Assembly (NCBI GenBank): GCA_030598385.1
Contig: JAUVQB010000026.1
Coordinates: 1 to 10,156, forward strand
Direction: 5' to 3'
Source: Alphaproteobacteria bacterium
GTDB lineage: Bacteria > Pseudomonadota > Alphaproteobacteria > Kiloniellales > JAKSDN01
Length of the DNA stretch: 10,156 nucleotides
Every line of letters begins with the position of its first letter. Within the stretch, counting starts at the first letter, position 1. The notes under the pieces are model-generated. The model saw only the letters and a program-made list of their open reading frames with translations. It searched no databases and had not been told where the DNA came from. Shown piece by piece: positions 1 through 7,433 of the stretch. Both the position numbers and the translations under genes were made by a program.

Positions 1-3202
<3,202 letters not shown>

Positions 3203-3204
3203 CT

Positions 3205-3237
3205 AGAGCGGTATGAGGTCAAATTGAAGCAACGCTG
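3205..3237 (+). repeat. Left terminal inverted repeat of the bamD-recN element
   Basis: The outer 24 bases (3205-3228) are an exact reverse complement of 3500-3523. The similarity then continues with gaps to 3237. The repeat ends 2 nt before the recN start codon, so it replaces the usual ribosome-binding region of recN. On the minus strand it contains TTGACC, a sequence like a -35 box pointing outward into recN. No matching -10 box at good spacing was found. Confidence 0.9.
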
Positions 3238-3490
3238 TTGCCTCTGGGCCGAGTCCGTCCGCTAGGCGCGGGCCGAAGCGCGATGCCCCATGGATTTCCG
3301 GCGCATCGGGCGAGGTTCGCAACGACGCGGCGGGCCGGCCCCCCGTATCCATGGGGGCAATCCATGCGGGACGGGCGATTTTGGCCGGACGCCGCGTCGC
3401 TCGTCCCGAAAATCCACTGGGAATATGGGCTGGCATGTCCTTCGTCCCAAACATTGATCCCTGGCCTAACGTCCAGCCAAAATCGCTCCG

Positions 3491-3523
3491 TCAGCGTGGT
3501 TCAATTTGACCTCATACCGCTCT
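3491..3523 (-). repeat. Right terminal inverted repeat of the bamD-recN element
   Basis: Positions 3500-3523 are an exact reverse complement of 3205-3228, with an imperfect extension inward to 3491. Only 5 nt separate it from the bamD stop codon (3531-3529). The element therefore lies immediately after bamD without disrupting its reading frame. Confidence 0.9.
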
Positions 3524-3528
3524 TGCCC

Positions 3529-4371
3529 TCAGAAAACCGAATCCCAGGTGCGACCAACCCACCCCTGATCGCTTTCCTCGTCGGGCATGGCATCGACCCC
3601 GGTGAACAGAGCGTAGCTATCGGCATACCACTCGCTGCCCGGATAGTTGTAACCGAGCACGGCGGCGTTCGCTTGAGCCTCGTCGACCACGCCGAGGGCG
3701 AGATAGGCCTCGACCAGGCGATGGAGCGCCTCGGGTACGTGGCTGGTCGTCTCGAAGGTCTTGATGACGGTGCGAAAGCGGTTGATTGCCGCGAGATATT
3801 CGCCGCTCGACAGATAGAAACGCCCGATGCTCATGTGCTTGCCGGCGAGGTGATCGCGCGTCAGGTCCATCTTGAACCGGGAATCGCGGGCATATTTGCT
3901 GTCGGGGAACCGGCGGGAGACCTCATCCAGGTTCGCCAACGCCAAGCGGGTCATTTTCTGGTCGCGCTCGACGTCGGAGATCTGCTCGTAGTAGCTAATG
4001 CCGCGCAGGTAGTAGGCGTAGGCGATGTCCTTGTGGCCGGGATGCAGTTGGATGAAACGGTCCAGGGTATTGATGGCGTCGTCGTACATACTGTCCTGAT
4101 ACTGCGCGAAGGCGGCCATCAACTGGGCCTTGGACGCCCAGGCGGAATAAGGGTGCTGGCGCTCGACTTCGTCGAACAGCCTCGCCGACTCCTCGTAGTT
4201 CTTGAGGTAGAGTTGATTGAGCGCGCCGTTATAGAGCTCTTCGACCGGCTGCTCGACATAGACGGGCCCCTCATCGTCGCCGCAGCCGGCCAAGGCCAGG
4301 ACGAGCAGGCCGGCGGACAGCAAGCGGCCGAGCCTGCGGGGGCGAAGCGCAAACTGGTTGGCGCATGGCAT
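3529..4371 (-). CDS. bamD: Outer-membrane assembly lipoprotein BamD
   Basis: BamD (formerly ComL/YfiO) is the essential periplasmic-face lipoprotein of the BAM complex, which works with BamA to insert beta-barrel proteins into the outer membrane. The 280-residue protein starts with a basic segment and a hydrophobic stretch ending in the lipobox LAGC, giving lipidated Cys30. The body is a series of TPR helices, for example PVEELYNGALNQLYLKNYEES, HPYSAWASKAQ and the family signature AYAYYLRGISYYEQISDVERDQ. The start is the ATG at 4371, because it gives a normal lipoprotein signal and has GGAG 11 nt upstream. An in-frame ATG at 4482 would put the promoter at 4427-4455 inside the gene and was rejected. 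E. coli BamD is about 245 residues; the extra length here is mostly at the C-terminus. The stop lies 5 nt from the inverted-repeat element. Confidence 0.95.
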   Translation of the reverse strand: MPCANQFALRPRRLGRLLSAGLLVLALAGCGDDEGPVYVEQPVEELYNGALNQLYLKNYEESARLFDEVERQHPYSAWASKAQLMAAFAQYQDSMYDDAINTLDRFIQLHPGHKDIAYAYYLRGISYYEQISDVERDQKMTRLALANLDEVSRRFPDSKYARDSRFKMDLTRDHLAGKHMSIGRFYLSSGEYLAAINRFRTVIKTFETTSHVPEALHRLVEAYLALGVVDEAQANAAVLGYNYPGSEWYADSYALFTGVDAMPDEESDQGWVGRTWDSVF

Positions 4372-4517: not shown

Positions 4518-5462
4518 TCAGGCGCCAACTGCCGCCGTTTTACGGGCCGGCTCGCGCGGTTCCGGCGAGCTCGGCCTGCGGGGTCGGGCAAGATCGCGCC
4601 ACGACCAGGCCGCGGTATCGCTGAACAGCTTCTCCAGCAGGCGAATCATCATGCCCGGTTTCGCGCTGCGGACGGTCGCTAGGCCGATGACCGGCCCACC
4701 GGCCAGGTAGAGATCGCCGATCATGCACTGAGTCTGGTGGCGCACGAACTCATTGGTGAATCGCAAGGGGAGATCGTCGGCGATCCTGTCGCCGAGGACA
4801 GTAACCGCGTTGTCGGGGCGGCCTTCCTGGCATTCGGCGTCATCCGCCGGATCGAGGAAGTCGAAATGGCGCGCGCGCGAAACCTCGCGCTTGTAGGTTT
4901 GTTTGTCGAGCGTGACCGCCCAGGCCTGCTGACCCACGGCCGTGCATTGGGATTCGCAAGCGACATCAAGCGTGAGCCCCGAACCTGGCGCCAACGTGAC
5001 CGACCCCCGGCCTTCGCTGATCTGAATGGGGCTTCGGATTTCGAGGGCGCGACGGGGCGCGTTCTGCGCGGTGCTGCCGGCGCACTCCAGGAGAAAGACG
5101 AACGGCGCCGCGCTGCCGTCCATGGCCGGCAATTCAGGACCGTCCAGCTCGATCATCGCATTATCGATCGTACAGCCTGAGAGCGCCGACATGAGATGCT
5201 CGATTCCCGTCACCTCGACGCCGCTTTCATTGACTAAGCCCGTGGCGGCGGCGTTCGCAACCGCGTGTTCCCAGCTTGCCGGAATCCACGGCCGGTGATT
5301 GAGGTCGATTCGCGAGAAAACGATCCCGAGGTCGGGCGGGGCCGGCCTCAGGGTCATGGCGATTTTCGCACCGCTGTGCCGGCCGATGCCGGAGCAATGA
5401 ATCGCGTTCTTAAGTGTGCGTTGAGGAACGTCGGGCGAAGACGCTGCGCCGGGTTTTTCCAT
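4518..5462 (-). CDS. lpxC: LpxC-family deacetylase with altered active site
   Basis: LpxC is the zinc enzyme that removes acetate from UDP-3-O-acyl-GlcNAc, the committed step of lipid A synthesis. The 314-residue protein (E. coli 305) has the two-domain family pattern: QRTLKNAIHCSGIGRHSG (14-31), LRPAPPDLGI (38-47), IEHLMSALSG (87-96), the insert-like MDGSAAPFVFLLE (114-126), SRARHFDF (195-202) and EFVRHQTQCMIGDLYLAG (238-255). It keeps E88, H89, H242 and D250 (E. coli E78, H79, H238, D246). It differs at T191 (H199), D197 (P205), K239 (Q243), zinc ligand D242 (C246) and H265 (P269); the GLxxGGS and SGHALN stretches are also lost. The spacing from D250 to the conserved AW (285-286) is identical to E. 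coli, so the last three of these are substitutions, not misalignment. The start is the ATG at 5462 with a weak GCGAG upstream. Canonical activity is uncertain. Confidence 0.88.
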   Translation of the reverse strand: MEKPGAASSPDVPQRTLKNAIHCSGIGRHSGAKIAMTLRPAPPDLGIVFSRIDLNHRPWIPASWEHAVANAAATGLVNESGVEVTGIEHLMSALSGCTIDNAMIELDGPELPAMDGSAAPFVFLLECAGSTAQNAPRRALEIRSPIQISEGRGSVTLAPGSGLTLDVACESQCTAVGQQAWAVTLDKQTYKREVSRARHFDFLDPADDAECQEGRPDNAVTVLGDRIADDLPLRFTNEFVRHQTQCMIGDLYLAGGPVIGLATVRSAKPGMMIRLLEKLFSDTAAWSWRDLARPRRPSSPEPREPARKTAAVGA

Positions 5463-5491
5463 CAGATCGTCTCGCTTTGGGTTGGCCCGAT

Positions 5492-5523
5492 GCCTGGTAC
5501 CGGGACGCGTCCCGGCACCAGGC
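5492..5523 (-). repeat. 32-nt near-perfect palindrome (REP-like hairpin) in the lpxC leader
   Basis: The arms GCCTGGTACCGGGACG (5492-5507) and CGTCCCGGCACCAGGC (5508-5523) are complementary at 15 of 16 positions. The only non-Watson-Crick pair is 5499/5516. In the minus-strand (lpxC-sense) RNA this becomes a G-U wobble, so the stem is fully paired there, while plus-strand RNA would have an A-C mismatch. The stem ends 29 nt before the lpxC ATG. No U-run follows it, so it is not a standard intrinsic terminator. It may be a REP-like repeat, an RNA stability element or a partial attenuator between ftsZ and lpxC. Confidence 0.75.
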
Positions 5524-5534
5524 CCTCGGCCGCC

Positions 5535-5561
5535 ATTAGGATGAGGTTGTGGAGAACTCAA
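5535..5561 (-). promoter_or_regulatory. Weak candidate promoter for lpxC
   Basis: On the minus strand TTGAGT (5561-5556) is followed after 15 nt by CCTAAT (5540-5535). The spacing is short and the boxes are imperfect. It is the best pair seen in the 180-nt ftsZ-lpxC gap, and lpxC may instead depend on read-through from ftsZ. Confidence 0.22.
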
Positions 5562-5642
5562 TCCACCTTTGCATGCCCTGGATTGTGATCCCTCCTCGAA
5601 CCTCGGCTGCAAATCTCTAACGCAGGGATTCCACGCCTCCGG

Positions 5643-7433
5643 TTAGTTGGCCTGGCGACGGAGGAAGGCCGGAATATCCAGGAGGTCCTCCTCGCTCTGG
5701 CTGACCCCGACCCGCTCGGCCGGATCCAGGCCGGTGAGGCGAGGCTGGTTCAGCGCCGGATCCGTTTTGGCCGCTGCCGGCTTCTGCGTGGCGGCGGACG
5801 GCGCCGGGGCCGCCGCCTGTTCGACCCGAGCCTCGCCGGCCGGCGGACGTGCTGCCGTGGCCTGGCGGGGCGCGGCGGTCTTCCGAACACCGGCCGGGCC
5901 GGCGGCTTCGGATCGTGGCGCCCCTTGCGCAGGCTCCGGCTGGCCGTTGCTTTGGGTGGCCTCGTGGAATGCACGTGCCGCGCCAGTCACTTTTGCCAGC
6001 AGCCCCTTGGCCTTTCTGGGTGCGGCCATGTCCGCCTCAGCCTCCTGGGCCGGGACCCGCCGCTGGCCGCTGTTGGCCAGCTCGGCCGCCGCAAAGGGGT
6101 CCGCATGGCTGGCCTCAATGGCTGGCTGCGGTGCCGCCTGAGCCTGTACCTCTGCGGCAGGCGGCGCGATGAAGCCATCGTCGGCAGGCTCCGGGTGCTC
6201 GCTCTCGTTTTCGAGCTCGGCCACCGCTTCGAGCGGCTCTTGCGCTTCCTGCAGCGGCTCTTCCGCCAACGCGGCCTCGAGCTCCGCTTGCGCCATCGGC
6301 ACGGCCTCCACCGCCGGCTCTTCGGCAACCGGCTCGCCTGCCGATTCGGCGCCGGCCGCGCCGACTGCGGTGACCGTGCCCATCGCGGGACCGCCGGACG
6401 CCCGCGCCGCGCGCGTGGCGCTGCTCACCAGGCTGAGCGACACCGGCCGCGGATGGGCGGCCGCCTCGGTGTCGATCCCGGTCGCCACGACGGAAACGCG
6501 CATGCGGCCGCTCATCGCCTGCTCGAAGGTCGAGCCGAAGATGATGTTGGCATCCGGGTCGACCTCGTCGCGGATGCGATTGGCCGCTTCGTCGACCTCG
6601 AACAGGGTGAGGTCGTCGCCGCCGGTGATATTGATCAAGACGCCGCGCGCGCCCTTCATGGAGACCTCGTCCAAGAGCGGATTGGAGATGGCCGCCTCGG
6701 CCGCCTCTATCGAGCGATGCTCGCTGTCGGCCTCGCCGGTGCCCATCATGGCCTTGCCCATCTCGCTCATGACGGCGCGGATATCGGCAAAATCCAAATT
6801 GATGAGGCCTGGCATGACGATCAGGTCGGTCACGCCGCGCACGCCGGCGTGCAGCACGTCGTCGGCCATCTTGAAGGCGTCGGCGAAGGTGGTCTTCTCG
6901 TTCGCCACCCTGAACAGGTTCTGATTGGGAATGATGATCAGGGTGTCGGCATACTCCTGCAGATCGCTGAGCCCGGCCTCGGCGATCTGCATGCGGTGAA
7001 TGCCCTCGAACTGAAACGGCTTGGTGCAGACGCCGACGGTCAGGATGCCGGCTTCGCGCGTCGCCCGGGCGATGACGGGTGCTGCGCCCGTGCCGGTGCC
7101 GCCGCCCATGCCGGCGGCGATGAAGACCATATTGACGCCTTCCAGGGCGGCGAGAATCTCGTCCATCGCCTCTTCGGCGGCGGCACGGCCGACCTCCGGC
7201 TGCGAGCCGGCGCCCAGGCCCTGGGTGATGTGCCGGCCGATTTGCACCGTGTGTTCGCAGAGCGACAGGTTGAGTGCCTGGGAGTCGGTGTTGGCGACCA
7301 AAAAGTCGACGCCTTCCAGGTTCGACTGGATCATGTTGTTGACGGCGTTGCCGCCGGCGCCTCCGACGCCGATGACGGTTATCTTAGGTGTCAATTGGCT
7401 TTCCGAAACCGGAAGATCGAGTTTCAAAGTCAT
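5643..7433 (-). CDS. ftsZ: Cell division GTPase FtsZ, long-linker form
   Basis: FtsZ is the tubulin-like GTPase that forms the cytokinetic ring at mid-cell. The 596-residue protein has the N-terminal nucleotide-binding start [15 protein letters not shown] (20-34), the tubulin signature GGGTGTG (110-116) and the T7 synergy loop NLDFADI (212-218, with D214 and D217). The globular core ends near residue 325. It is followed by an Ala/Glu/Pro-rich linker of about 255 residues and the conserved C-terminal peptide [11 protein letters not shown] (586-596), which binds FtsA and other membrane tethers. Alphaproteobacterial FtsZ proteins typically have long linkers (Caulobacter FtsZ is about 508 residues), and this one is longer still. 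The start is the ATG at 7433 with AGGAGG 5 nt upstream. It lies 91 nt after ftsA. The stop is TAA, followed by a 180-nt gap to lpxC. Confidence 0.98.

Follow-up and report, generated by a model that had tools for sequence, protein, structure and literature searches.

The stretch of DNA analysed here (the window, 10,156 nucleotides) corresponds to contig C218 in a Kiloniellales metagenome-assembled genome (MAG) of 2.2 Mb, termed G000 (72% complete, 3.9% contamination), and carries on its minus strand the genes ddl (partial), ftsQ, ftsA, ftsZ, lpxC, bamD, recN and ligA (partial) in this order (Table 1). The lpxC product matches PF03331 at about 232.9 bits (232.7-232.9, cut-off 27) and TIGR00325 at 204.5 (cut-off 187.25), and its LpxC homology spans the full length with the fold intact, in agreement with a previous sequence-only reading of this DNA which had aligned the protein with LpxC throughout. 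Its ortholog in G001, a MAG of the same genus (69% complete), is 76% identical to it and falls just below the TIGR00325 cut-off (182.6 vs 187.25). In the relatives G002 and G005 lpxC also lies directly after ftsZ, and a foreign paralog as the origin of the window gene is ruled out by the usual ftsZ-lpxC-bamD slot together with a 30-row tree in which the window and G001 proteins fall among the LpxC of their own order. Within this tree the pair sits on a long stem beside LpxC of family f4 (93/73) and not beside LpxC of its own family, which is taken as long-branch uncertainty. The lengths of the stem (1.58) and of the tips (0.17 and 0.24) show an apparent burst of change in the pair that slowed down afterwards.

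Table 1. Features of the window and their counterparts in the same-genus genome G001 (E. coli LpxC numbering in brackets)
Feature	Position	Strand	Remarks
recN, next gene downstream of bamD	1487..3202	-	PF02463; homologous to recN slot of relatives
bamD, downstream neighbour of lpxC	3529..4368	-	PF13525
lpxC, predicted LpxC-derived protein without catalytic site	4518..5462	-	314 aa, ATG start, open; ORF and profile matches
P269 at catalytic acid (H265)	4656..4658	-	Arg in G001
D250 (D246), kept in window	4713..4715	-	Asn in G001
C246 at zinc ligand (D242)	4725..4727	-	Cys in both genomes
H242-Q243 (H238-K239)	4734..4739	-	Gln-Glu in G001
H199 at (T191)	4866..4868	-	Tyr in G001
E88-H89 (E78-H79), kept in window	5196..5201	-	H89 is Pro in G001
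ftsZ-lpxC leader, palindromic hairpin, possible control region of lpxC	5466..5612	-	aligned with G001 L036 5578-5723
ftsZ, upstream neighbour of lpxC	5643..7433	-

The leader between ftsZ and lpxC is identical to that of G001 at 134 of 147 bases, while the corresponding values for other gaps are 108/147 (lpxC-bamD) and 89/91 (ftsA-ftsZ). It includes a 12-codon reading frame (5536-5574, minus strand). No Rfam family matches the leader at gathering score, and its identification as a known RNA is rejected as the four sub-threshold Rfam matches (E 0.47-2.5) look like chance. A reading of the leader as an extension of the protein is likewise rejected: although its frame is open, most of the differences from G001 alter an amino acid, as judged by eye. 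Elsewhere in the window, an insert of about 320 bp between recN and bamD (3205-3523) that is absent in G001 has 27-nucleotide inverted ends (96% complementary) and resembles a small mobile element without coding capacity; a search of plasmids with it returned no match.

The roles of the LpxC active-site residues are described in PMC6286764 and PMC10254716, each available in part. When the window protein is placed against 71 full-length canonical LpxC sequences (69 distinct), the T191 column contains T in 69 and S in two, and K239, D242 and H265 are each present in 71/71. These four positions are occupied by His199 (CAT), Gln243 (CAG), Cys246 (TGC) and Pro269 (CCG) in the window protein, as the sequence-only reading had proposed. 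A fifth replacement that it had counted among the active-site changes, D197 by Pro205 (CCG), falls away: this column is variable (E 46, D 20, Q 2, K 1, S 1, A 1), hence P205 is no loss of an invariant residue and is rejected as a catalytic loss. The residues it had listed as retained, E88 (GAG), H89 (CAT), H242 (CAC) and D250 (GAT), are confirmed by their codons. Further changes affect column 171, which we take to correspond to F161 of E. coli, the uridine-stacking aromatic, and which is F, Y or W in 68/71 canonical sequences and Ser in the window protein; column 213, where the invariant Gly is replaced by Glu; the positions of N229 and L245, which are likewise altered; and the loop ahead of N218, which is shorter than in relatives. 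At T191, K239, D242 and H265 these are true losses in this alignment. A slip of the alignment is ruled out by the 71 canonical sequences and the independent ortholog, and sequencing error is unlikely as the separately assembled G001 carries the same or further changes.

A wider alignment of 81 rows combines the window and G001 proteins with 79 other LpxC, both from their order and class and from other phyla; some of these 79 are fragments or duplicates and one is partly masked. All 79 have E78, H79, H238, K239, D242, D246 and H265, and T or S at T191, wherever letters are present, and departures at these eight positions are confined to the window and G001 (2/81 rows, where letters are present). 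The zinc ligands H79, H238 and D242 read H, H and C in the window protein and P, Q and C in G001; the catalytic residues E78, T191, D246 and H265 read E, H, D and P in the window protein and E, Y, N and R in G001; and K239 is Q and E, respectively. Because neither the zinc ligands nor the catalytic residues are complete, the window protein is not classed with the active LpxC family, as far as can be judged from its sequence. The sequence-only reading had raised the possibility that a clade shares the altered active site, and indeed G001 shares the losses at T191, K239, D242 and H265, but the exact residues differ except for the Cys. No other LpxC with a lost active site was found in the class among 25 low-score genomes and G030 of the order (some rows being fragments and one masked), a selection from the 332 LpxC-positive of 386 genomes; G128, G278, G327 and G401 are among the comparably scoring genomes outside this selection. 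The presence of an LpxC (37% identity) in a record titled as a Lactobacillus MAG (L043) points to a bin that is mixed or carries the wrong label.

The 42 near-invariant columns include 29 that both proteins keep, 10 that both have lost and three that only G001 has lost; seven of the eight catalytic, zinc and substrate positions are lost in one or both of the pair, compared with six of the 34 other near-invariant positions, and within residues 1-135 19 of 21 near-invariant columns are kept in window and G001 alike. Lost catalytic residues are thus combined with a kept scaffold, the pattern of a pseudoenzyme. The sequence-only reading had left two alternatives: an LpxC-like protein without catalysis that is retained at the division locus, or an enzyme that is active through a His/His/Cys zinc site on another substrate or by another mechanism. 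In favour of such an enzyme, H89, H242, C246, E88 and D250 are all present in the window protein on an intact fold, and the retention of H79, H238 and D246 means that a metal could still bind there. However, in the 76% identical protein of G001, H79 is replaced by Pro, H238 by Gln, D242 by Cys and D246 by Asn, and neither protein retains T191, K239, H265 or the uridine-stacking aromatic. The alteration of all three zinc ligands and of D246 in G001 makes a shared His/His/Cys zinc enzyme very unlikely, and of the two alternatives the non-catalytic one is well supported, resting on the single LpxC, the absence of LpxA, LpxB and KdtA matches, the empty slots of G001 and a dN/dS of 0.23.

The genome search detects only one LpxC in G000 and no second canonical copy of the kind that the sequence-only reading had allowed for. 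Lipid A is what anchors lipopolysaccharide, the usual sugar-fat of the outer membrane. LpxA, LpxB and KdtA, the lipid A pathway around LpxC, have no match in G000 or G001 (72% and 69% complete), nor do LptF and LptG in these incomplete MAGs, while lptD is present in G000. Since both MAGs are incomplete, the gene slots on individual contigs matter. As fabZ was not found over cut-off in G000 and its lptD is cut by the contig end, this evidence comes from G001 alone. In G001 (contig C397) rseP, bamA, skp and fabZ are followed by gltX facing them, with no room for lpxD, lpxA and lpxB; the slot of G006 reads rseP, bamA, skp, fabZ, gltA, gltX, and in G004 and G005 lpxA and lpxB directly follow fabZ. 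Similarly, surA, lptD and pepA lie side by side in G001 and G006, with lptFG missing, and two LptF/G-like ORFs sit between pepA and lptD in G005. LptD itself is retained in G001 (L131 1574-4430) although the slot beside it is without LptF/G. That a second, canonical LpxC and a lipid A pathway were missed through MAG incompleteness deserves hardly any credence: the completeness values leave room for it, but LpxA, LpxB and KdtA are absent from both genomes and the closed fabZ region of G001 is without lpxD, lpxA and lpxB.

In a survey of 61 genomes of the order, LpxC is without a match in 16, LpxB in 15, KdtA in 16 and LpxA (over cut-off) in 15. Twelve genomes (G006, G012-G018, G032-G034, G058) are without LpxA, LpxC, LpxB and KdtA together, and these keep LptD and LptF/G. 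LpxA is present in all of the other four LpxC-negative genomes (G022, G025, G039, G056), LpxB and KdtA in three of these, and the missing LpxC is likely a gap in them. LptD is present in 60/61 genomes including all lipid-A-less ones, and LptF/LptG in 59/61, being absent only from G000 and G001. The apparently repeated loss of lipid A with LptD kept raises the question of the LptD cargo in this order. A second LptF/G pair is located near a serine palmitoyltransferase gene in G012 (L172) and G057 (L173); LptC2, LptF2 and LptG2 are reported for the Caulobacter sphingolipid cluster in the available part of PMC11324152. The twelve lipid-A-less relatives have the order ftsZ-bamD-recN (12/12, with only part of ftsZ on the contig in G017, G018 and G032) without an LpxC-like ORF in it at E 1e-3. 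Loss of lipid A is therefore not generally accompanied by retention of lpxC, and as these relatives did without it no general need for the gene is apparent.

The selection acting on lpxC was estimated from a single species pair, window and G001, by the Nei-Gojobori method. The dN/dS of lpxC is 0.231, compared with 0.193 for recN, 0.165 for bamD, 0.162 for ftsZ, 0.086 for ftsA, 0.275 for ftsQ and 0.155 for the ddl part, and with 0.136-0.332 in six pairs of canonical LpxC of the family. This points to purifying selection on lpxC after the loss of the active site in this one species pair. Compared with its neighbours lpxC has an elevated dN, with ratios of 1.58 to recN (0.81, 1.25 and 1.17 in canonical pairs), 1.92 to bamD (1.38, 1.20 and 1.15) and 5.76 to ftsA (1.07 in one canonical pair), which implies that the constraint on the window gene is weaker than on the enzyme and yet far from absent. 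These ratios, together with the dropping of lpxC by the twelve relatives, fit a decaying relic, i.e. a gene without present function that has been eroding slowly since the loss of lipid A and is still uninterrupted. In 2000 neutral simulations with the spectrum of four-fold sites, lpxC acquires 1.8 stops on average, but 340 runs are stop-free like the observed gene, an outcome that is not rare under neutrality. The same simulations predict an identity of about 28% (maximum 36%) where 76% is observed. The shared losses (C246; K239, T191 and H265; the short loop) are older than the species split, yet dN/dS has been 0.23 since, and the near-invariant columns of residues 1-135 and the leader are conserved between the two genomes, all of which renders the relic improbable.

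The window LpxC is therefore regarded, with good confidence but from two incomplete MAGs only, as a non-catalytic protein under selection in a cell without lipid A. The division-cluster lpxC would have been inherited in place in this Kiloniellales genus, in which lipid A synthesis was lost and lpxC turned non-catalytic, and the folded protein would still act by binding something, so that it is probably a putative binding or regulatory protein. A contact between LpxC and MurA has been found in P. aeruginosa (Hummels et al. 2023, PMC9995270); the available part of this paper also gives a covariation estimate of LpxC-MurA pairs for 35% of Alphaproteobacteria and a pull-down in which Magnetospirillum LpxC and MurA bind, and the LpxC residues contacting MurA are not named in that part. 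The subject is also covered by a review (PMC12444477, available in part). In a cell that has lost lipid A, the LpxC of such a pair could have been retained to regulate or stabilise MurA or the division machinery. Tentatively, LpxC may serve in this Gram-negative cell devoid of lipid A solely as a non-enzymatic regulator of division or of the synthesis of peptidoglycan, with MurA or the division machinery as its partner. If true, this regulatory role would imply that a second function, independent of catalysis, can reside in ordinary LpxC. More tentative still is the choice of MurA, the enzyme of the first committed step in making peptidoglycan, which may be the likeliest candidate because its binding to LpxC is published.

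Like the LpxC deacetylases (PF03331, TIGR00325), which act on UDP-3-O-acyl-N-acetylglucosamine, the window protein has full-length homology, the fold and the place after ftsZ; it differs from them at the zinc, acid, T191, K239 and uridine-stacking positions, and the rest of the pathway is not found. With the LpxC-MurA regulatory pair it has in common an LpxC scaffold in an alphaproteobacterium. In that pair, however, MurA activates a working LpxC, whereas the window LpxC is unable to function as the known enzyme and its contact with MurA is putative. Lipid-A-less Alphaproteobacteria, including the twelve relatives, show the same loss of lpxA, lpxB and kdtA with LptD kept, but the twelve have lost lpxC too and keep the LptFG pair, whereas the window genus keeps an apparently non-catalytic LpxC and no LptFG is found. 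No published description of an LpxC pseudoenzyme was found in the literature searched, and LpxC is known as an enzyme and drug target. A lineage without the rest of the lipid A pathway that nevertheless protects a dead LpxC would represent a natural separation of the enzyme from its other roles, and a catalysis-independent function of LpxC in keeping the envelope layers in step, for example via MurA, would become directly testable. Pseudoenzymes in general are a known kind of protein that combines a homologous fold with a dismantled catalytic site and continued selection, and in all three respects the window LpxC appears to resemble them.
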